From assembly GCF_013408335.1 (NCBI RefSeq), contig NZ_JACBZR010000001.1:4193501-4257500 (forward strand): 64,000 nt of DNA, given 5' to 3'. The stretch comes from Nocardioides panzhihuensis. GTDB lineage: Bacteria; Actinomycetota; Actinomycetes; Propionibacteriales; Nocardioidaceae. This document shows positions 55,361 through 64,000 of this stretch, one piece after another. Below the pieces are notes generated by a model. It had not been told where the DNA came from. It saw nothing but the letters and a program-made list of their open reading frames with translations, and did not search any database. Every line of letters starts with the position of its first letter. Position 1 is the first letter of the stretch. A program made the position numbers and the translations under genes.

Positions 55361-56662
55361 ATGGCGATCACCTGGCGCGTCGCGCTGCTCATGCTGGCCG
55401 GCATCATCCCGGTCGTCCTGCGCCCGGCGGCGGGCACCGCTGCGATCTGGATCGTGCTCGTGGTCGTGCTGGTGCTGGCCGATGTGCTCCTGGCCCCGAA
55501 GCCGACGGCCCTGGAGATCAGCCGGAAGCCGCTCGGCGGGATCCGGCTGGGCGACTCGACGGCCTCGGAGCTGGTTATCCGCTCCCCCGATCGGCGCGTC
55601 AGAGCAGTGGTGCGCGACGCGTGGCAGCCCACCGCCGGCGCGACTGGCAACCGGCACCGGATCCGGCTCGATCGAGGCGACAGCACCAGGCTGCGTACGC
55701 CGCTGCGGCCGCGCCGCCGCGGAGACCTGCGCGCACTGGGTGTGACGGTCAGATGTTTCGGGCCGCTCGGCCTGGGCGCACGGCAGAGCACGCGCCCGGT
55801 CGACGGCTCGGTTCGGGTCCTGCCGGCGTTCGAGTCTCGCAAGCACCTCCCGTCCCGGCTTCAGCGTCTTCGTGAGCTCGACGGCCGGGCCGCGGTGCGG
55901 GTGCGCGGGCAGGGGACGGAGTTCGATTCGCTGCGGGAGTATGTCCGAGGCGACGACGTACGCTCCATCGACTGGCGCACCACCGCCCGCTCCCGCACCG
56001 TCGTGGTCCGCACCTGGCAGCCGGAGCGCGACCGCCGCGTCGTGCTGGTGCTCGACACGTCCCGCACCTCGGCCGCCCGGGTCGAGGGCGCCGCCGGCGG
56101 GGTGCCGCGGCTCGACTCGGCGATGGATGCCGGGCTCCTGCTCGCCGCCATCGCCTCCCGGGCCGGCGACCGGATCGACTTCATCGCCGGTGACCTGCGC
56201 GTCCGCTCCCGGGTCCGGCTCGCCGGACAGCGCGACGTCACCCAGCGTCTGCAGGAGGCGATGGCCGACCTCGAGCCGGTCATCGCCGAGGCCGACTGGT
56301 CCAACCTCGCCGGCGCGGTCGCGGGCCTCGGTCGCCACCGCGCGCTCGTGGCCCTGCTGACTCCCCTCGACCCGCACGCGATCGAGGAGTCGCTCCTGCC
56401 CGTCCTGCCGGTCCTGACCCAGCATCACCGCGTCGTCCTCGCCTCCGTCCGCGACCCCGAGCTCGAGGCAACCGCGGCCGCGCGGGACACCCTCGAAGAT
56501 GTCTACGCCGCGGCCGCCGCCGAGCAGACCCTCCGCCGCCGCGAGCACACCGCCGCCATGCTCCGCACCCTGGGCGTCGACATCGTCGACGCCGACGCCG
56601 AGTCCCTCCCGCCTGCTCTCGCCGACCACTACCTGCAGCTCAAGGCCACCGGTCAGCTCTGA
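55361..56662 (+). CDS. DUF58 (vWA-like) protein
   Basis: 433 residues. Two N-terminal hydrophobic segments (LLMLAGIIPVVLRP and TAAIWIVLVVVLVLADVLL) anchor it; the conserved DUF58 motif EYVRGDDVRSIDWR follows, then a vWA-like fold with VVLVLDTSRT in place of the MIDAS DxSxS. Partner of MoxR in known systems of cell-envelope or stress function. GAGG lies 9 nt before the ATG. It would be followed by spoIIM in M. tuberculosis (Rv3692-Rv3695 order); here a minus-strand island comes first. Confidence 0.9.
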   Translation: MAITWRVALLMLAGIIPVVLRPAAGTAAIWIVLVVVLVLADVLLAPKPTALEISRKPLGGIRLGDSTASELVIRSPDRRVRAVVRDAWQPTAGATGNRHRIRLDRGDSTRLRTPLRPRRRGDLRALGVTVRCFGPLGLGARQSTRPVDGSVRVLPAFESRKHLPSRLQRLRELDGRAAVRVRGQGTEFDSLREYVRGDDVRSIDWRTTARSRTVVVRTWQPERDRRVVLVLDTSRTSAARVEGAAGGVPRLDSAMDAGLLLAAIASRAGDRIDFIAGDLRVRSRVRLAGQRDVTQRLQEAMADLEPVIAEADWSNLAGAVAGLGRHRALVALLTPLDPHAIEESLLPVLPVLTQHHRVVLASVRDPELEATAAARDTLEDVYAAAAAEQTLRRREHTAAMLRTLGVDIVDADAESLPPALADHYLQLKATGQL

Positions 56663-57127
56663 TCAGTCGAGCAGACGGAGGTCGAACCGGTCAGCAACTG
56701 CTGCGTGAAGGTCGAAGCCAGGGATGAGGTAGACGACGACGCTCTGGCATTCGTCCGCGAGGGAGACGAGATATCGACTCCCCTGCCAGAACTCAGCCGA
56801 AAAGGCATACGGCGCGACCTGGACGAAGCTCTCCCATAGGCGGTCGTCCGCCGAGTCCACAAGGTTGGTCGTCGCATAGTCCTCAGACTCCACTTTTGTT
56901 CCCTTGAGCGATCGCAGGAAGGCTCGGCAATCGACGACTTCAGGCGGCGCCTCCACGAGGGCCGGCATGTCGGTCTGGAACTCAGATCCATACGGTCTAA
57001 GCAGGTTTAGCAGCATGCGAACCCGGTCTCGCTGCTCGTCATCAGGCGCATCTGGCGGGTACTCGACCACGTACGCCTTGGGCCTGTCCGCTCTCGATCT
57101 GCGCCACAGCGCCACTGGATCCCTCAC
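56663..57127 (-). CDS. Hypothetical protein, third gene of the XRE-AbiEii island
   Basis: 154 residues, no family recognised. It starts with GTG at 57127 (RDPVALWRRSRADRPKAYVV) whose GTGA overlaps the stop of the broken AbiEii gene, so it was translated as part of that operon. Mixed alpha/beta composition with many Asp and Tyr, and a PGFDLHAAVADRFDLRLLD end; no signal peptide. Base composition is visibly less GC-rich than the moxR genes. It might be a third component of the toxin module or an unrelated passenger. Confidence 0.5.
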   Translation of the reverse strand: MRDPVALWRRSRADRPKAYVVEYPPDAPDDEQRDRVRMLLNLLRPYGSEFQTDMPALVEAPPEVVDCRAFLRSLKGTKVESEDYATTNLVDSADDRLWESFVQVAPYAFSAEFWQGSRYLVSLADECQSVVVYLIPGFDLHAAVADRFDLRLLD

Positions 57128-57650
57128 TCGCCTCGAAGCTCTTCGGACCATTCGTCGAAGAACGCCACCAGGTCGGGAACGGATTCCTCATCGATCGGAA
57201 ATTGCCGAGCGTTGATCTGGTTCACCATGCGCGCCATTTGACCGAATACGTCGCGGTCGAACCCTAGATCCCGCTCGGCCGCCAGCTCAAGCAGTTTCGG
57301 CCTTCCGAACCGTCGAGCCAGGGTGAACACGTCGACGAAGTCACGCGGCGCCGCACGGCCGAAGAGTGCCAGCGTCTTACGTCCAGCGTTCTCCTCGAGG
57401 CCGATCGTGGGCCCCAAGAACGTCACCGTAGGGGGAAGCAGGAGGCTGGCATCGATGCCGAGGTCGACCTCGATCTTGTCGACGGCGGCGATCACAGAGA
57501 GTCGTACGAACTCGTCGGTCACACGCTCAACCGCCCCAACGCGATGAGCGCGGCACCGCCCGCGAGCAGAAATCCTTCGGACTCGGGGAGATCGAAGAAG
57601 GTGCGGGCAACATCTTCCTGGAACGCGGTGATGAATCCTGTCGCGCCCAC
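57124..57650 (-). pseudogene. AbiEii/AbiGii-type nucleotidyltransferase toxin, frameshifted and internally deleted
   Basis: The frame starting at GTG 57650, 2 nt after the XRE stop, encodes a correct AbiEii N-terminus (AFQEDVARTFFDLPESEGF then LLAGGAALIALG, nucleotidyltransferase motif I) but stops at 57519. The remaining protein continues in another frame from about 57550: TDEFVRLSV, DKIEVDLG, KTLALFGRAAPRDFVDVFTL, RRFGRPKLLELAAE, ending EELRGE at 57124. Compared with the family pattern, roughly 35-40 residues carrying the catalytic DLD motif are missing at the junction. The toxin is therefore almost certainly inactive. Confidence 0.75.
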
Positions 57651-57652
57651 GT

Positions 57653-58219
57653 CTACGCAACATCCCGGAAGTCCGAGACCGCGCCCTGCCAGGCCTGACG
57701 GATCTCGGGCGGCACGAACATGTCATCCCACATCTCGACGAGCTGGCCGCCGTCGACATAGTCGACAAGGACCGAAGGGGTCGCCTCGAGCATGAGCATT
57801 CGATAGGCGAGGGCCCGGTCGTTCCAGTCGGCCAGGTCGAACGTTCCGCCTCCATCAGACCAGTGGACGCTGTGCGGCAAGGTCACCGTCGCAGTGGCGC
57901 GTTCGGGTTCGAGGCGCCACAGCCGGTTTGGTACCGCCATCGGTCGGCCGATCCGGCTCATCACGGTCCGGAACGAGACCAACCCGCTCGGCGTACGCAC
58001 CATCTCGATCGGGTCGGGTTCGTCGGAGACCTCGAGTCCGACGGCTCGCATCACGTCGGCGACCTTGCGGAGCTCGGCTCTGCCATGGCCGGCCTCGAGC
58101 TCGATGACGAACCGTCGCCCCACACCGGCCAGCTCCGCGAGCTCGGCCTGGGTCAGACCGAGACTCTTGCGCACACCGCGCACCAGCTCGCCGATCTCGC
58201 CCGGGGACATGGTTGCCAT
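57653..58219 (-). CDS. XRE-family helix-turn-helix regulator, partner of AbiEii remnant
   Basis: 188 residues. The N-terminal HTH (LVRGVRKSLGLTQAELAELA, then GVGRRFVIELEAGHGRAE) resembles HipB-type antitoxin regulators; residues ~85-188 form an uncharacterised domain (VPNRLWRLEPERATATVTLP, DWNDRALAYRMLMLEA, FVPPEIRQAWQ). It is directly upstream of the AbiEii remnant and so was probably the cognate antitoxin or autorepressor. TACGCT lies 6 nt before the ATG and a perfect inverted repeat covers its -35 region, so it is likely autoregulated. It appears intact. Confidence 0.75.
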   Translation of the reverse strand: MATMSPGEIGELVRGVRKSLGLTQAELAELAGVGRRFVIELEAGHGRAELRKVADVMRAVGLEVSDEPDPIEMVRTPSGLVSFRTVMSRIGRPMAVPNRLWRLEPERATATVTLPHSVHWSDGGGTFDLADWNDRALAYRMLMLEATPSVLVDYVDGGQLVEMWDDMFVPPEIRQAWQGAVSDFRDVA

Positions 58220-58258
58220 GCGTCCAGCGTACGCTCAGATGTTCCCGACTGGGAACAT
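58220..58258 (-). promoter_or_regulatory. XRE promoter: leaderless -10 plus inverted-repeat operator
   Basis: On the minus strand TACGCT (58231 to 58226), itself in the palindrome AGCGTACGCT, ends 6 nt before the ATG at 58219. Upstream, ATGTTCCC-GACT-GGGAACAT (58239-58258) is a perfect 8+8 inverted repeat covering about -20 to -40. This is where an autorepressor would block polymerase. Confidence 0.65.
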
Positions 58259-59254
58259 TCACGCCTGGGTGGCGACGCGATCCTCGAGCAGCCGCTCGTC
58301 GATGTCGCCCGTCTCGCCGCGAGAGGCGGCGGCGCAGCCGACGATGAAGACGTACGCGAAGAACGCGAGCTCGGCGAGGATGCCGATGCCGACGCGGGCC
58401 CAGGTGGGCAGGGGCGATGGGGTGACGAAGGCTTCGATGATGCCGGAGATCAGCAGCACGACGATGAGCCCGAGGGCGATGCCTCCGGCGGTGCGGCCCT
58501 CCCGGGCCATCGACTGACCGCGGGTCAGCGGCCCGGGGTCGATCCAGGACCAGAAGATCCGCAGCCCGACCGCGCCGGCGACGAAGACGGCGGTCAGCTC
58601 CAGCAGTCCGTGGGGCAGGATCAGGCCCCAGAACTGGCCGCCACGGTCGTGGCGGTGCATCAGGGTGCCGAGGATCGCCAGGTTGGCGATGTTCTGGAAC
58701 ATCGAGTAGATCACCGGCAGCCCGAGCACGCCCAGGGCGATGCAGATGAACGAGACCCAGACGTTGTTGACCCAGACCTGGGTGGCGAACGACGAGGCCG
58801 CGTGCTCGCTGTAGTAGCCCTCGATGTCGTGCTCGACGAGCTGCCTGACCTGCTCCGGGCCGAGCAGCGACTGCTCGACCTCCGGGTGGCGCAGCAGCCA
58901 CCAGATCATCACCGCGGTGACGACCGCGTTGGCCACCAACATCCCCAGCCACCACCAGCGCAGCCGGTAGAGCGCGGCCGGGAACCGATGGGTGAAGAAC
59001 CGCAGGAAGCCGGACCATGTGCTGGTCCGGGTGCCGGTGGTGCGGTTGCGCGCCGCTGCGAGCAGCACCGAGAGATGCTGGACCACCGTCGGGTCGGGGG
59101 CGTTGCTGCGTACGACCGAGAGCTGGGTGCTCACCCGTTGATAGAGCTCGACCAGCTCGTCGGCCTGAGCACCGCTCAGCCGGCGCTCGGCCAACAGCTC
59201 CTCGAGCCTGGTCCGGTCGGCCGCGGTCGCGGCCAGATACGCATCGAGATCCAC
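58259..59254 (-). CDS. Stage II sporulation protein M-like membrane protein (SpoIIM/DUF95)
   Basis: 331 residues. A cytosolic helical N-terminus (DLDAYLAATAADRTRLEELL) precedes about six hydrophobic segments; the conserved IEGYYSEHAASSFATQVWVN and LPHGLLELTAVFVAGAVGLR segments identify the SpoIIM/DUF95 family. In actinobacteria it accompanies MoxR, DUF58 and RDD genes and is not tied to sporulation. The start is GTG at 59254, leaderless by position of the TACGCT. The XRE operon follows 39 nt after its stop, on the same strand. Confidence 0.88.
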   Translation of the reverse strand: MDLDAYLAATAADRTRLEELLAERRLSGAQADELVELYQRVSTQLSVVRSNAPDPTVVQHLSVLLAAARNRTTGTRTSTWSGFLRFFTHRFPAALYRLRWWWLGMLVANAVVTAVMIWWLLRHPEVEQSLLGPEQVRQLVEHDIEGYYSEHAASSFATQVWVNNVWVSFICIALGVLGLPVIYSMFQNIANLAILGTLMHRHDRGGQFWGLILPHGLLELTAVFVAGAVGLRIFWSWIDPGPLTRGQSMAREGRTAGGIALGLIVVLLISGIIEAFVTPSPLPTWARVGIGILAELAFFAYVFIVGCAAASRGETGDIDERLLEDRVATQA

Positions 59255-59277
59255 GCCCGCAGCGTACGCTGACCGCC
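59255..59277. promoter_or_regulatory. 23-bp divergent gap with a palindromic -10 serving both strands
   Basis: AGCGTACGCT (59261-59270) is a perfect palindrome. On the plus strand TACGCT (59265-59270) lies 7 nt before the RDD gene ATG at 59278; on the minus strand TACGCT (59266 to 59261) lies 6 nt before the spoIIM GTG at 59254. Both genes would be leaderless, with start sites about 23 bp apart and their -35 regions inside each other's coding sequence. Confidence 0.65.
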
Positions 59278-60138
59278 ATGACCCTCGCGCCGCAATCGCC
59301 CGAGCGACGTCCCCAGGAGCAGCGCCTCCCCCAAGAACGTGAGCTGCTGACCGACGACGACCTCGTCACCGGCGACGCGGTCGCCCTCGACCTGCCGGCG
59401 GCCGGGCTGGGGATGCGGCTGCTCTCAGGCCTCATCGACGTGCTGGTGACCTGCGTCCTGCTGGTGGTCTTCCTGATCCTCTTCATGACCGCGACGTTCG
59501 ACACCGACGAGGCGCTCGCCTGGGCCGCCTACATCGCGGCGACCGCCGCGGTCCTGGTCGTCCTCCCGACGGCCATCGAGACGCTCACCCGCGGCCGATC
59601 ACTCGGCAAGCTGACGCTCGGGCTGCGCACGGTGCGGGACGACGGCGGCGCGATCAGCTTCCACCATGCGTTCGTTCGCGCCTTGGTCGGCGTCGTCGAG
59701 ATCTACGGCACCAGCGGTGCCGCTGCCCTGATCACGGCGATGATCCACCCCCGCGGCAAGCGCCTCGGCGACATCGCAGCCGGGACCTACGTCATCCGTG
59801 TCCGGGTTCCACTGAGCCCTCCGGCCCCGGTCCAGATGCCTCCCCCGCTCGCCGCCTGGGCCTCCCGGGCAGACGTTGCCGCGCTCCCTGTCGGCCTGAG
59901 CCTGGCGGTGCGCCGGTTCCTCTCCGGCGAGGTCGGCACGTACACCGACCCGGAGCGCCGCCACGCGCTCGCCGAGCGCCTGGCGACCCAGGTGCAGACC
60001 TACGTCGCCCCTGGCCCGCCCCCGGGCACGCCGCCCGAGGCCTACCTGGCCGCAGTGCTCGCGTCCCGCCGCGACCGGGACGCCGCCCGCCTGGCCCGCG
60101 ACAACGACCTTCGTACTCGTCTGACGTCGCGAAGCTAG
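59278..60138 (+). CDS. RDD-family membrane protein
   Basis: 286 residues. The RDD domain covers about residues 40-180: GLGMRLLSGLIDVLVTC (the R and D of the name), two to three membrane helices, RGRSLGKLTLGLRTV and HPRGKRLGDIAAGTYV. The C-terminal ~100 residues are cytosolic and charged. Some RDD proteins act as Na+(Li+,K+)/H+ antiporters, most are uncharacterised. Divergent from spoIIM; convergent with the gene at 60207, sharing a 24-bp hairpin. Confidence 0.88.
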   Translation: MTLAPQSPERRPQEQRLPQERELLTDDDLVTGDAVALDLPAAGLGMRLLSGLIDVLVTCVLLVVFLILFMTATFDTDEALAWAAYIAATAAVLVVLPTAIETLTRGRSLGKLTLGLRTVRDDGGAISFHHAFVRALVGVVEIYGTSGAAALITAMIHPRGKRLGDIAAGTYVIRVRVPLSPPAPVQMPPPLAAWASRADVAALPVGLSLAVRRFLSGEVGTYTDPERRHALAERLATQVQTYVAPGPPPGTPPEAYLAAVLASRRDRDAARLARDNDLRTRLTSRS

Positions 60139-60146
60139 GGGTCGAC

Positions 60147-60213
60147 GGGGTAGTCCGGTAGCGAACTGCCTATTACTCGCCGGTATATGGGCAGTTCGCT
60201 ACCGGACTACCCC
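60147..60213. terminator. 24-bp perfect inverted repeat, bidirectional terminator or mobile hairpin
   Basis: Arms 60147-60170 and 60190-60213 match perfectly; the 19-nt loop holds TACTCGCC and TATGGG straddles its end. It lies between convergent genes and its right arm covers the last codons and stop of the minus-strand gene. A related loop occurs in the hairpin at 6662-6732. Confidence 0.85.
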
Positions 60214-60806
60214 TTCAGTCCGACGGACCTCAGTTCCAGCGCGGCCAGTTTCGCCACCACGTCGGGATCGCCGTCGCGCCAGGCCCTGACCGGGTCGTCG
60301 CTGATCTTCACCAGCTTGTGCAGCGGTTGGGTCGACATCGCCCGGAGAGCAAGCAGGTCACCGCCGGTACCGGCCTCCAGGAACCGCTGGGTCGAGGTCG
60401 CCTTTCGGATGAAGCGCCACCGCAGAGGTACGTAGACCAGCATCCACATCAGCACCGGAACGACCACGACCGCGATCGCCAGCCCGATCGCAATGCCGGC
60501 GACGGCCTCGACCTGCGCCTCGCCGGCCGCGGCGAGCTGGTCGGCCGCCTTCGCGGCCCCCGTGAACGGCGCCGCGATCCCGTCCTCGACGAGTGGCAGG
60601 TCATCGACTCGGCCGGCCGCCTCGAGCATCCTCTCGGAGAGCGAGGTGCCGGCGGCGTCCATCTTCTCGCCGGGCAGGGCGAGCGCCGAGACCATCTCGT
60701 GGACGAACCTGCCGATGAGAACCCACCCGACGACCCACACCACCGTCAGCAGGTCGGCGAACAGTTGGGCAACGCGGCGCGTGGGCGTATCGGCGTACCA
60801 CTTCAT
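60207..60806 (-). CDS. Two-helix membrane protein, unknown function
   Basis: 199 residues. A hydrophobic helix near 14-34 (LLTVVWVVGWVLIGRFVHEM) and another near 105-130 (AIGLAIAVVVVPVLMWMLVY) flank a ~65-residue Ala/Asp-rich extracytoplasmic region; the C-terminus (RWRFIRKATSTQRFL onward) is cytosolic. It starts MKWYADTPTRRVAQL, a motif seen in other actinobacterial hypothetical membrane proteins. ATG at 60806; AAGGA 8 nt upstream could be a ribosome site. It follows trmB by 57 nt. Confidence 0.65.
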   Translation of the reverse strand: MKWYADTPTRRVAQLFADLLTVVWVVGWVLIGRFVHEMVSALALPGEKMDAAGTSLSERMLEAAGRVDDLPLVEDGIAAPFTGAAKAADQLAAAGEAQVEAVAGIAIGLAIAVVVVPVLMWMLVYVPLRWRFIRKATSTQRFLEAGTGGDLLALRAMSTQPLHKLVKISDDPVRAWRDGDPDVVAKLAALELRSVGLKG

Positions 60807-60863
60807 GGCACTGATCCTTGCGGCTCCGACCCCACAGATCAGTGACGACACGGGCAGTTCGGG

Positions 60864-61586
60864 TCAACGCCTCCGGTAGAGCAGATCGGTGATGACCCGG
60901 TCCTTGGCCAGTCCCTTGCGCTCGAACTTGGTCACCGGACGCTCTTCCCAGCGATCGACCACGCCACCGCTCAGCAGCGGCTCGGCGCCGAGGACCTCGA
61001 CCATCTGCTCGGCGTACTCGACCCAGTCGGTCGCCAGGCGCCAGGTGCCACCTGCGTGGAGCCGTTCGGCGATCATCCGCGCATTGGTGGGCGTGACCAG
61101 GCGTCGCTTGTGGTGGCGGGTCTTGTGCCACGGGTCAGGGAAGAACGTCCAGAACTCGCTGACCGACTCCGGGGCGACGAGGTGCTCTAGGGTCCAGAGC
61201 GCATCGACGCTGCAGAACCGTACGTTGGTCGCCCCCGCGGCGCCCACCCGGGCGAGGCTCTCCGCTACGCCGGGCCGCCAGACCTCCAGGGCCAGGATGT
61301 CGTACGCAGGCCGGGCCGCCGCGAGCACGGCGGTCGCTTCCCCCACGCCGCCGCCGATGTCGACGATCAGCGGAGCCTCACGACCGAACCAGCTGTCCAG
61401 GGAGAACCCGGGCTCGTCGACTGCCTCGTCCGGAATCACCCACTCTTCGGCATAGGCATCCCAGGCACGCTGCTGCTTCGTGTCCAGCCGGCTACCGCGT
61501 CGGGTGTAGGTGACCACCTCCCGGACGGTGCGGCCGTCGTCGAGCAGCTTCTGGTGCGGTCGGGCGGGGCGTACGGACTCGTTCAT
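60864..61586 (-). CDS. trmB: tRNA (guanine(46)-N7)-methyltransferase
   Basis: 240-residue SAM enzyme making m7G46 in the tRNA variable loop. The SAM motif is IVDIGGGVGEATAVLA; FFPDPWHKTRHHKRRLV is the family signature with catalytic and tRNA-binding residues, and TKFERKGL is the C-terminal signature. TAGAAT (minus strand, 61601 to 61596) lies 9 nt before the ATG and is a good -10, giving a very short or no leader. It transcribes away from the tuf terminators. Confidence 0.96.
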   Translation of the reverse strand: MNESVRPARPHQKLLDDGRTVREVVTYTRRGSRLDTKQQRAWDAYAEEWVIPDEAVDEPGFSLDSWFGREAPLIVDIGGGVGEATAVLAAARPAYDILALEVWRPGVAESLARVGAAGATNVRFCSVDALWTLEHLVAPESVSEFWTFFPDPWHKTRHHKRRLVTPTNARMIAERLHAGGTWRLATDWVEYAEQMVEVLGAEPLLSGGVVDRWEERPVTKFERKGLAKDRVITDLLYRRR

Positions 61587-61631
61587 GATGCCGCGATTCT
61601 ACGATCGCGCCTCGCCGACCTCGTAAAAGGC

Positions 61632-61665
61632 GAAGGGCGCCCAGGCCGAAGCCTGGACGCCCTTC
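61632..61665 (-). terminator. Distal tuf-type terminator (copy 1, variant stem)
   Basis: GAAGGGCG + CCAGGC pair with GCCTGG + CGCCCTTC around CGAA, one mismatch. Same position as the other two but a different internal stem sequence. Confidence 0.75.
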
Positions 61666-61754
61666 TGATCGCGGCTTACGCCGCTGAGATCACTTGACGA
61701 TCTTGGTGACGCGACCCGCCACCCAACGCAGGTAAGACCGCCCTCACGAAAGGC

Positions 61755-61787
61755 GAAGGGCACCCGAGCCAGGCTCGGGTGCCCTTC
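61755..61787 (-). terminator. Middle tuf-type terminator (copy 2)
   Basis: A 16-bp perfect stem (61755-61770 with 61772-61787) around a single central base, identical to copy 3. Confidence 0.8.
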
Positions 61788-61876
61788 TGATCGCGGCTTA
61801 CGCCGCTGAGATCACTTGATGATCTTGGTGACGCGACCCGCCACCCAACGCAGGTAAGACCGCCCTCACGAAAGGC

Positions 61877-61909
61877 GAAGGGCACCCGAGCCAGGCTCGG
61901 GTGCCCTTC
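61877..61909 (-). terminator. Primary tuf terminator (copy 3)
   Basis: A 16-bp perfect stem (61877-61892 with 61894-61909) 24 nt after the tuf stop codon; the true end of the tuf transcript. Confidence 0.85.
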
Positions 61910-61933
61910 TGATCGCGGCTTACGCCGCTGAGA

Positions 61934-63127
61934 TCACTTGATGATCTTGGTGACGCGACCCGCGCCGACGGTGCGACCGCCCTCACGGATAGCGAACTTC
62001 AGACCCTCGTCCATCGCGATGGGCTGGATGAGCTCGACCGACATCTCGGTGTTGTCACCCGGCATGACCATCTCGGTGCCCTCGGGGAGGGTCACAACGC
62101 CGGTCACGTCCGTGGTCCGGAAGTAGAACTGCGGACGGTAGTTGTTGAAGAACGGCGTGTGACGGCCACCCTCCTCCTTCGAGAGGATGTAGACAGAGCC
62201 CTCGAAGTTGGTGTGCGGGGTGGTGGTGCCCGGCTTGATGACAACCATGCCGCGCTCGACGTCCTCGCGCTTGGTGCCGCGGAGCAGCAGCCCGACGTTC
62301 TCGCCGGCCTGGCCCTCGTCAAGAAGCTTGCGGAACATCTCGACGCCGGTGACGGTCGACTTCTGCGAGTTCTCGCGGATGCCGACGATCTCGACCTCTT
62401 CGCCGACCTTGACGATGCCGCGCTCGATACGACCGGTGATGACGGTGCCACGACCGGTGATCGTGAAGACGTCCTCAACGGGCATCAGGAACGGCTTCTC
62501 GGTCTCGCGAGCCGGGGTCGGGATGTAGTCGTCGACGGCCTGCATGAGCTCGGCGACGGAGTCCATCCACTTCTCCTCGCCCTGCAGGGCGGGGTAAGCG
62601 GCAACGCGGACGACCGGCAGGTCGTCACCCGGGAACTCGTACTCGCTGAGGAGCTCGCGCACCTCCATCTCGACGAGCTCGATGAGCTCCTCGTCGTCGA
62701 CCATGTCGCACTTGTTGAGCGCGACGACGATCGACGGCACGCCGACCTGGCGGGCCAGGAGCACGTGCTCCTTGGTCTGCGGCATCGGGCCGTCGGTGGC
62801 GGCGACCACGAGGATCGCGCCGTCCATCTGCGCGGCACCGGTGATCATGTTCTTGATGTAGTCCGCGTGACCGGGGCAGTCGACGTGCGCGTAGTGGCGC
62901 ACCTCGGTCTGGTACTCGATGTGCGCGATCGAGATCGTGATACCCCGCTGGCGCTCCTCGGGGGCCTTGTCGATGTCCTCGAACGCGAACTCCGGGTTCA
63001 GGTCCGGGTACTTCGCGTGCAGCACCTTCGAGATCGCCGCGGTAAGGGTGGTCTTACCGTGGTCGATGTGACCGATGGTGCCGATGTTGACGTGCGGCTT
63101 CGTCCGCTCGAACTTCGCCTTAGCCAC
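61934..63127 (-). CDS. tuf: Elongation factor Tu
   Basis: GTPase delivering aminoacyl-tRNA to the ribosome, 397 residues. G motifs: GHIDHGKTT (G1), RGITI (G2), DCPGHADYI (G3), NKCDMVDD (G4). Domains 2 and 3 follow ([36 protein letters not shown] end). Kirromycin-contact regions look normal. It lies 84 nt after fusA and is followed by the tandem terminator array rather than by rpsJ. Confidence 0.98.
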
Positions 63128-63211
63128 TGTGGGCTCCTCCTGGTGTGATTTTCTTACTGACTCGTACTGAAAGGTGTTGCTGCCGAAGTCCCTGGACGGG
63201 CGACCCGAAGG

Positions 63212-64000
63212 TCACTCGCCACGGGCCTTCTTGATGATCTCGTCGGCGACGTTCGTGGGAACCTCGGCGTACGAGTCGAACTCCATCGAGTACGACGCCT
63301 GACCACTGGTCTTGGACCGGAGGTCACCGACGTACCCGAACATCTCGGAAAGCGGGACGAGCGCGTTGACGACCATGTCGCCGTGACGCTCCTCCTGCGA
63401 GGAAACCTGGCCGCGGCGGGAGTTGATGTCGCCGATCACGGTGCCCAGGAAAGTGTCCGGGGTGGTGACCTCGACGGCGAACATCGGCTCCAGCAGAACG
63501 GCCTTCGCCATGCGGGCGGCCTCCTTGAAGGCCTGGTTGCCGGCGATCTTGAAGGCGAGCTCGGAGGAGTCGACGTCGTGGTAGGCGCCGTCCTCGAGCG
63601 AGACCTTCACATCGACCATGGGGAAGCCGGCGAGGATGCCGAACTCCATGGCGTCCTGAGCACCCTGGTCGACCGAAGGGATGTACTCCTTCGGCACGCG
63701 ACCACCGGTGACGTTGTTGGCGAACTCGTAGCCCGCGCCCTGGCCCGTCTCCTCGTCGATGTTGGGCTCGACGGAGATGACGACCTTCGCGAACTGACCC
63801 GAACCACCGGTCTGCTTCTTGTGGGTGTAGCTGTGGTTCGTGACCTTCTTGCGAAGCGTCTCGCGGTAGGCGACCTGCGGCTTGCCGACGGTGGCCTCGA
63901 CCTTGAACTCGCGCTTCATCCGGTCGACGAAGACCTCCAGGTGGAGCTCGCCCATACCGGCGATGATCGTCTGGCCGGTCTGCTCGTCGGACTTGACCGT
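63212..64000 (-). CDS. fusA: Elongation factor G, C-terminal part (start outside window)
   Basis: Translocation GTPase. The visible 262 codons cover domains III-end, IV and [21 protein letters not shown], the domain [16 protein letters not shown] and [19 protein letters not shown] loops, and [20 protein letters not shown] with the [14 protein letters not shown] segment in domain V. The frame is open to the window edge; the GTPase domain lies beyond it. rpsG and rpsL are expected next. Confidence 0.97.

Follow-up and report, generated by a model that had tools for sequence, protein, structure and literature searches.

A candidate bidirectional promoter with a shared TA step between predicted leaderless spoIIM and RDD genes of Nocardioides panzhihuensis

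Introduction

In the window (i.e., the whole stretch of 64,000 nucleotides of Nocardioides panzhihuensis DNA that was analysed) a spoIIM-like gene and an RDD gene diverge from start codons whose coordinates differ by 24, i.e., with 23 bp in between: GTG 59254 on the minus strand and ATG 59278 on the plus strand. The question raised by this locus is how two genes can be started from so short a gap, and whether transcription in one direction shuts off the other.

Two kinds of known promoters are pertinent. In E. coli the preferred start distances of bidirectional promoters are 18, 10 and 23 bp (PMC12825309). In Actinobacteria more than 20% of genes have, according to a 2011 survey, a TANNNT some 12 bp ahead of the start codon (PMC3160421).

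The gap and its two hexamers

The features of the locus are the following:

59255..59277, no strand: whole intergenic gap of 23 bp, proposed bidirectional promoter (from the sequence and relatives)
59261..59270, no strand: 10-bp palindrome AGCGTACGCT, read as two TANNNT -10 hexamers with a common TA
59265..59270, plus strand: TACGCT, proposed -10 hexamer for RDD, ending 7 nt before ATG
59266-59261, minus strand: TACGCT, proposed -10 hexamer for spoIIM, ending 6 nt before GTG
59265..59266, no strand: TA step common to both hexamers, proposed -12T/-11A of both promoters
59278..60138, plus strand: RDD-family membrane protein gene (286 aa, PF06271), predicted leaderless, start compared with relatives
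58259..59254, minus strand: SpoIIM-family membrane protein gene (331 aa, PF01944), predicted leaderless, first codons conserved in relatives

The size of the gap, the presence of TACGCT on each strand and its distances of 6 and 7 nt from the two starts had been given in a preliminary description of this DNA, and all are confirmed in the sequence. A TANNNT is found 6-7 nt from the start codon on both sides, which is one mark of the leaderless class, and the opposite-strand -10 elements have the bases 59265-59266 in common, which is one mark of bidirectional promoters. No Shine-Dalgarno-like string is seen by eye in the 23 bp. Very likely the 23 bp act as a compact two-way promoter of the housekeeping type (TANNNT) in which no -35 is recognisable, and whose two mRNAs would be leaderless and probably co-expressed; start sites, activity, sigma factor and co-expression are predictions from the sequence and its relatives.

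Pfam recognizes both proteins (SpoIIM, PF01944, E 5e-42; RDD, PF06271, E 2.4e-14), and NCBIfam returned no name for either. The SpoIIM of the window has 98% identity with its counterpart in a Nocardioides MAG. In its longest reading the RDD ORF begins 87 codons upstream of the predicted leaderless ATG (59017 vs. 59278); the leaderless signal is useful for start-codon placement in such cases.

A consensus promoter and terminator scan of 57000-61000 found nothing. This consensus is of the E. coli type, and the promoter scan is uninformative here because the proposed promoter itself also escapes it. An Rfam search of 56000-64000 gave no match. Two 24-bp arms (60147-60170 and 60190-60213) form a perfect inverted repeat 3' of the RDD gene; it has no T run and the terminator scan gave no report of it.

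Leaderless spacing in relatives

SpoIIM loci were taken from 198 family genomes (56 matched), from 296 class genomes (200 matched) and from a named collection (best 80 of 594). The loci outside the family are a selection from the 200 matching class genomes: 20 returned by the search plus 40 hand-picked across families. From 199 loci, 197 were usable (L060 and L203, whose N-terminus is missing, were dropped) and 179 are distinct.

On the SpoIIM side of these 179 loci, TANNNT is located at 6 nt in 74, at 7 nt in 34, at 8 nt in 9 and at 9 nt in 4. None is found at 0-5 or 10-14 nt, and 1-4 loci have it at a few spacings between 24 and 39 nt. Nine loci have TANNNT at 15-16 nt, where the start is a GTG 9 nt upstream; with this correction applied, TANNNT is at 6-7 nt in 117 of the 179 loci, and in 54 of the 55 distinct family loci. 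On the RDD side (168 loci with RDD downstream; none found in the remaining 11 of the 179) the values are 30 at 6 nt, 43 at 7 and 17 at 8, with 0-4 at every other spacing, it being noticed that the RDD starts were chosen partly with the help of the motif. Within the family, 42 of 55 distinct loci have an RDD TANNNT at 5-8 nt.

TANNNT and Shine-Dalgarno signals are used in a complementary manner across the SpoIIM loci. A Shine-Dalgarno-like string within 25 nt of the SpoIIM start is present in only 4 of the 130 loci with TANNNT at 5-9 nt vs. 39 of the 49 loci without it. Of these 49 loci, many of which are from Streptomyces, 24 have GAGGAGC within 25 nt of the start. The comparison, with its sharp spacing peak, supports leaderless-type starts on both sides. 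The proposal of leaderless mRNAs in both directions holds to this extent; it is not universal, since 49 of 179 loci have no TANNNT on the SpoIIM side. TANNNT is missing on at least one side in 92 of the 179.

Sharing of the TA core

Both sides have TANNNT in 87 loci. The hexamers are separate in 68 of these and overlap in 19 (of 179 distinct), always by TA. The start codons of the 19 shared loci are 23 (1 locus), 24 (15), 25 (1) or 26 (2) apart, and the inner letters of the core vary, e.g., AGCGTACGCT, ATCCTAGGAT, AGCCTATGCT and ACCCTAGACT. Core positions 1, 5, 6 and 10 are fixed by the definition of the class, and their constancy is partly circular. A less circular count takes the 18 loci whose in-frame RDD start is at a distance of exactly 24 from that of spoIIM: ANNNTANNNT lies between the two in 15.

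Perfect palindromes are found in 5 of the 19 shared cores, with 4 different sequences; two of the five are those of this genome and of a relative with a 98% identical SpoIIM. Selection for palindromicity was looked for in how often both strands carry an identical hexamer: this is so in 5 of the 19 loci with a shared core and in 14 of the 68 with separate hexamers, vs. 0.08 under random pairing. Sharing does not clearly raise this rate. A palindrome is just what results when one hexamer serves on both strands. The preliminary description had built the promoter on the palindrome, to be looked for in relatives: the TA core, the geometry and the overlapping -10 elements are indeed kept, and the palindrome letters are not.

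The shared core is not required, since the hexamers are apart in 29 of the 41 family loci that have both. For example, Nocardioides sp. Soil805 (L168, identical to L014) has the shared form and N. lianchengensis (L175, identical to L013) the separate one. On a quick SpoIIM tree (73 scored rows; 35 of 83 inner branches weak, gain and loss not separable) no fewer than 10 changes are required for the shared/separate state, and well-supported branches force 5 of these. Shuffles need 16.3 on average and 0 of 500 are as low as 10; the state is thus clustered yet repeatedly turned over.

Other arrangements of the same gene pair were also observed. In six loci from other families (L077, L083, L150, L151, L155, L156) the hexamers overlap by five bases, one of the two being weaker (NANNNT), and the start codons are 19-21 apart, i.e., near the 18-bp register of E. 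coli. In L050 a 38-bp perfect palindrome, which holds two separate -10 elements, spans the entire spoIIM-RDD gap with both start codons; L047 comes close to this.

The bare 10-mer

Two copies of AGCGTACGCT are present in the window; 100 dinucleotide shuffles gave 0.07 copies on average and never as many as 2. Genome-wide AGCGTACGCT has 12 places and the reversed string has 5. A start codon at a distance of 5-8 nt exists for no more than 3 of the 12 places, namely on both sides at this locus and on one side at 58226 and at C1:5377597. With the other nine lacking such a start codon, the 10-mer was rejected as a genome-wide signal. The informative object is the geometry, i.e., a common TA at 6 and 7 nt from the two starts, which is well above chance, and not the bare 10-mer.

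The second copy within the window is the following:

58226..58235, minus strand: one-sided occurrence of AGCGTACGCT, whose TACGCT ends 6 nt ahead of the ATG (58219) of an HTH gene

The product of this HTH gene is of the Y4mF/HipB type (NCBIfam TIGR03070, 68.7 bits vs. a cutoff of 71.65), and TACGCT at 6 nt is its own leaderless-type -10. A perfect dyad, ATGTTCCCgactGGGAACAT, covers its would-be -35 region (58239-58258) and is probably an autoregulatory operator of the gene. An AbiEii-like gene is located downstream of the HTH gene.

Alternative readings of the gap

The palindrome could be the operator of a dimeric regulator instead of two -10 elements. It is a perfect 10-bp dyad, the same 10-mer precedes the HTH gene at 58226, and a near relative (G469, L256) has AGCGTACGCT as well. 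Beyond the nearest relatives, however, the inner letters change (ATCCTAGGAT, AGCCTATGCT, ACCCTAGACT and others), for which this reading was rejected, while what remains constant (in part through the definition of the class) is the TA, the outermost A and T and the distances to the two start codons. Moreover, the HTH gene has another and longer dyad, and most genomic copies of the 10-mer are away from start codons, as counted above. An operator is extremely improbable. It is also very improbable, though to a slightly less extent, that transcription of one or both genes comes mainly from promoters further upstream, within the opposite gene, and that the hexamers are incidental. Internal promoters are common in bacteria, which speaks for this reading; the sharp spacing of 6-7 nt over 179 loci and the near absence of Shine-Dalgarno-like strings where the hexamer is present (none by eye in the gap itself) speak against it.

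Proposed working and known systems

In the preferred reading, i.e., one bidirectional promoter, RNA polymerase would engage the gap in either orientation. Since the common TA sets -11A of one strand opposite -12T of the other, both orientations would open the same step. Transcription would start at or next to each start codon, so that both mRNAs would be leaderless. The two complexes could not be present simultaneously, which would lead to steric competition; at low ordinary occupancy both genes would probably be expressed together, as a co-regulated pair.

A -35 motif (TTG or GNTTNG, spacing 14-20) is absent in both directions from all 19 shared loci. Propionibacterium acnes belongs to the same order as the organism of the window. 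A -35 motif GnTTnG has been reported for P. acnes (PMC3848588) and its absence here may denote a weak promoter, whereas in M. tuberculosis no conserved -35 motif is reported (PMC3898074).

The E. coli and Salmonella promoters of Warman and Grainger likewise have a symmetric -10 that engages polymerase both ways (PMC12825309, PMC10268837). If both mRNAs begin at their start codons the start distance is 24, i.e., the 23-bp register of these promoters plus one base (PMC12825309), and divergent starts 7-25 bp apart define a bidirectional promoter (PMC10268837). The window differs from the published cases in that its two protein-gene mRNAs are predicted to be leaderless, the gap is the whole promoter and no -35-like motif is found; the word «leaderless» is absent from the main text of the 2026 paper (PMC12825309). 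On the other hand, the actinobacterial TANNNT leaderless genes have the same hexamer class as those of the window, and the passages on leaderless genes in the three papers concerned do not mention a -10 common to two divergent leaderless genes (PMC3160421, PMC3898074, PMC3848588). Titles and abstract openings were searched for leaderless together with bidirectional, divergent or overlapping promoters: no -10 common to two leaderless genes appears among the matches listed, a scope outside which most subscription papers fall. The shared-TA leaderless pair is a case of the published kind of bidirectional promoter, with both products predicted to be leaderless.

If the start sites are confirmed, the locus would be a near-minimal two-gene unit: one TA step, with no -35, no leaders and no spare intergenic DNA.

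Exclusion or co-expression

The preliminary description had gone further and claimed that mutually exclusive firing is hard-wired, i.e., that firing one way shuts off the other way, a switch that selection would keep. Two polymerases cannot bind at once at bidirectional promoters, and in E. coli strong activation of one side represses the other (PMC12825309). Instantaneous steric exclusion is expected at a shared -10. A switch is a different matter: at all five tested E. coli bidirectional promoters basal activity is too low for competition, repression being observed once one side is strongly activated (PMC12825309). Closely juxtaposed divergent promoters are called common in M. tuberculosis (PMC3898074), where prpD (Rv1130) and Rv1129c are, like the pair of the window, divergent neighbours, mapped as leaderless there and predicted so here; both sides rise together in starvation (PMC3898074).

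The relatives point in the same direction. Separate promoters occur among them, and the shared/separate state changes at least 10 times on the SpoIIM tree (73 rows), though in a clustered manner. In addition, 48 of the 68 separate loci still have their start codons within 60 bp, a distance which is still inside the polymerase footprint; steric exclusion thus does not single out the shared design. The claim of hard-wired exclusion is unsupported, and a switch of this kind is very improbable. Co-expression with weak competition is favoured, because of the basal activities in E. coli and the co-induction in M. tuberculosis. The natural shared and separate variants would let the effect of competition on co-expression and noise be compared.

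Recurrence in Nocardioides

The divergent pattern with spacers of 6 and 7 nt was counted in 98 Nocardioides genomes: 505 matches vs. 79 for the backwards control, with at least one match in 97 of the 98. The control is as common or commoner in some genomes (pattern vs. control: 2 vs. 7 in G500, 0 vs. 2 in G507). The count in the genome of the window is modest (7 vs. 3 for the control; 2 vs. 0 for the version with 6 nt on both sides). At these nine places ORFs of more than 200 codons are opened on both sides in 5 and on one side in 4. One of the 5 two-sided places, whose genes read by eye like 5-formyltetrahydrofolate cyclo-ligase and GalU, has a different perfect palindrome, AGCCTAGGCT. Six places from other genomes comprise 3 with the same gene pairs and geometry (all from one near relative and picked because alike), 1 further two-sided place and 2 one-sided ones. 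Besides the spoIIM-RDD pair, four divergent ORF pairs of the own genome (L248, L249, L253 and L254) share a TA-core -10 at leaderless spacing.

A sample of the genome (the window and 800 kb out of 6.3 Mb; genes called by a simple GC3 rule) gave 599 genes, in which TANNNT lies 6 nt before the start 57 times and 7 nt before it 40 times, vs. a background of 4.0 per spacing. Among 112 divergent pairs, 42 have a hexamer on at least one side. At least 9 divergent start combinations have hexamers on both sides, and none of those 9 overlaps. This sample missed the RDD start of the window because only 60 codons into each ORF were examined.

It is put forward tentatively, as a possibility and not as the expected outcome, that the shared-TA leaderless divergon of Nocardioides is a recurring selected module: several pairs per genome would have one two-way -10 as their whole gap, lineages would switch repeatedly between shared and separate forms, and dispersed repeats with a leaderless -10 of their own could break the module. 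If this were true, related species would provide a natural experiment in how polymerases compete and how noisy expression is.

A repeat wedged into the promoter

Two loci of Marmoricola MAGs, L043 and L039, have SpoIIM proteins that are 97.6% identical and gaps that differ. L043 has the shared promoter of 23 bp; in L039 the same 23 bp are accompanied by an insert of 194 bp that adjoins the spoIIM start. The insert (L039:1071-1264) is a member of a dispersed, sometimes tandem, repeat of about 80 bp in Marmoricola-type genomes. Matches to it (many partial; 40 candidates scored per genome) number 12, 17 and 17 in three Marmoricola genomes and 0 in the genome of the window. Among the matches listed in the literature search on the repeat, no paper on such a repeat was found. 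Folded as DNA, it has a z of -2.84, and 1 of 200 shuffles folds at least as well; since, in an alignment of 11 of the 13 copies, only 3 of the 14 consensus pairs vary on both sides, no structure is claimed.

The edge of the repeat reads outward as TAGCCT, 6 nt, start codon, TAGCCT being its proposed outward -10. Three overlapping sets of copies were considered (loci L262-L267, L269, L270, L273, L274-L286, L287-L316). (i) The edge is included in 12 copies, and in 10 of these a long ORF has its start codon 0-3 nt outside the edge; several of these ORFs represent one gene in two genomes. (ii) Exact copies of a 17-mer number 13 (in 7 of 149 family genomes), and for 12 of them an ORF of 78 aa or more starts 6-9 nt further on. 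(iii) Among 31 near-full copies (the 30 best loci of those 7 genomes), a TA-type hexamer precedes an ORF of 75 aa or more by 6-9 nt in 20; these 20 precede about 15 different genes, some reading like csrA, coaE, ispF and ppx/gppA by eye. Of the remaining 11 copies, 6 lie within tandem arrays as inner units. The repeat is apparently a putative portable leaderless promoter, which merits a separate study, one copy being located between spoIIM and the shared promoter (L039).
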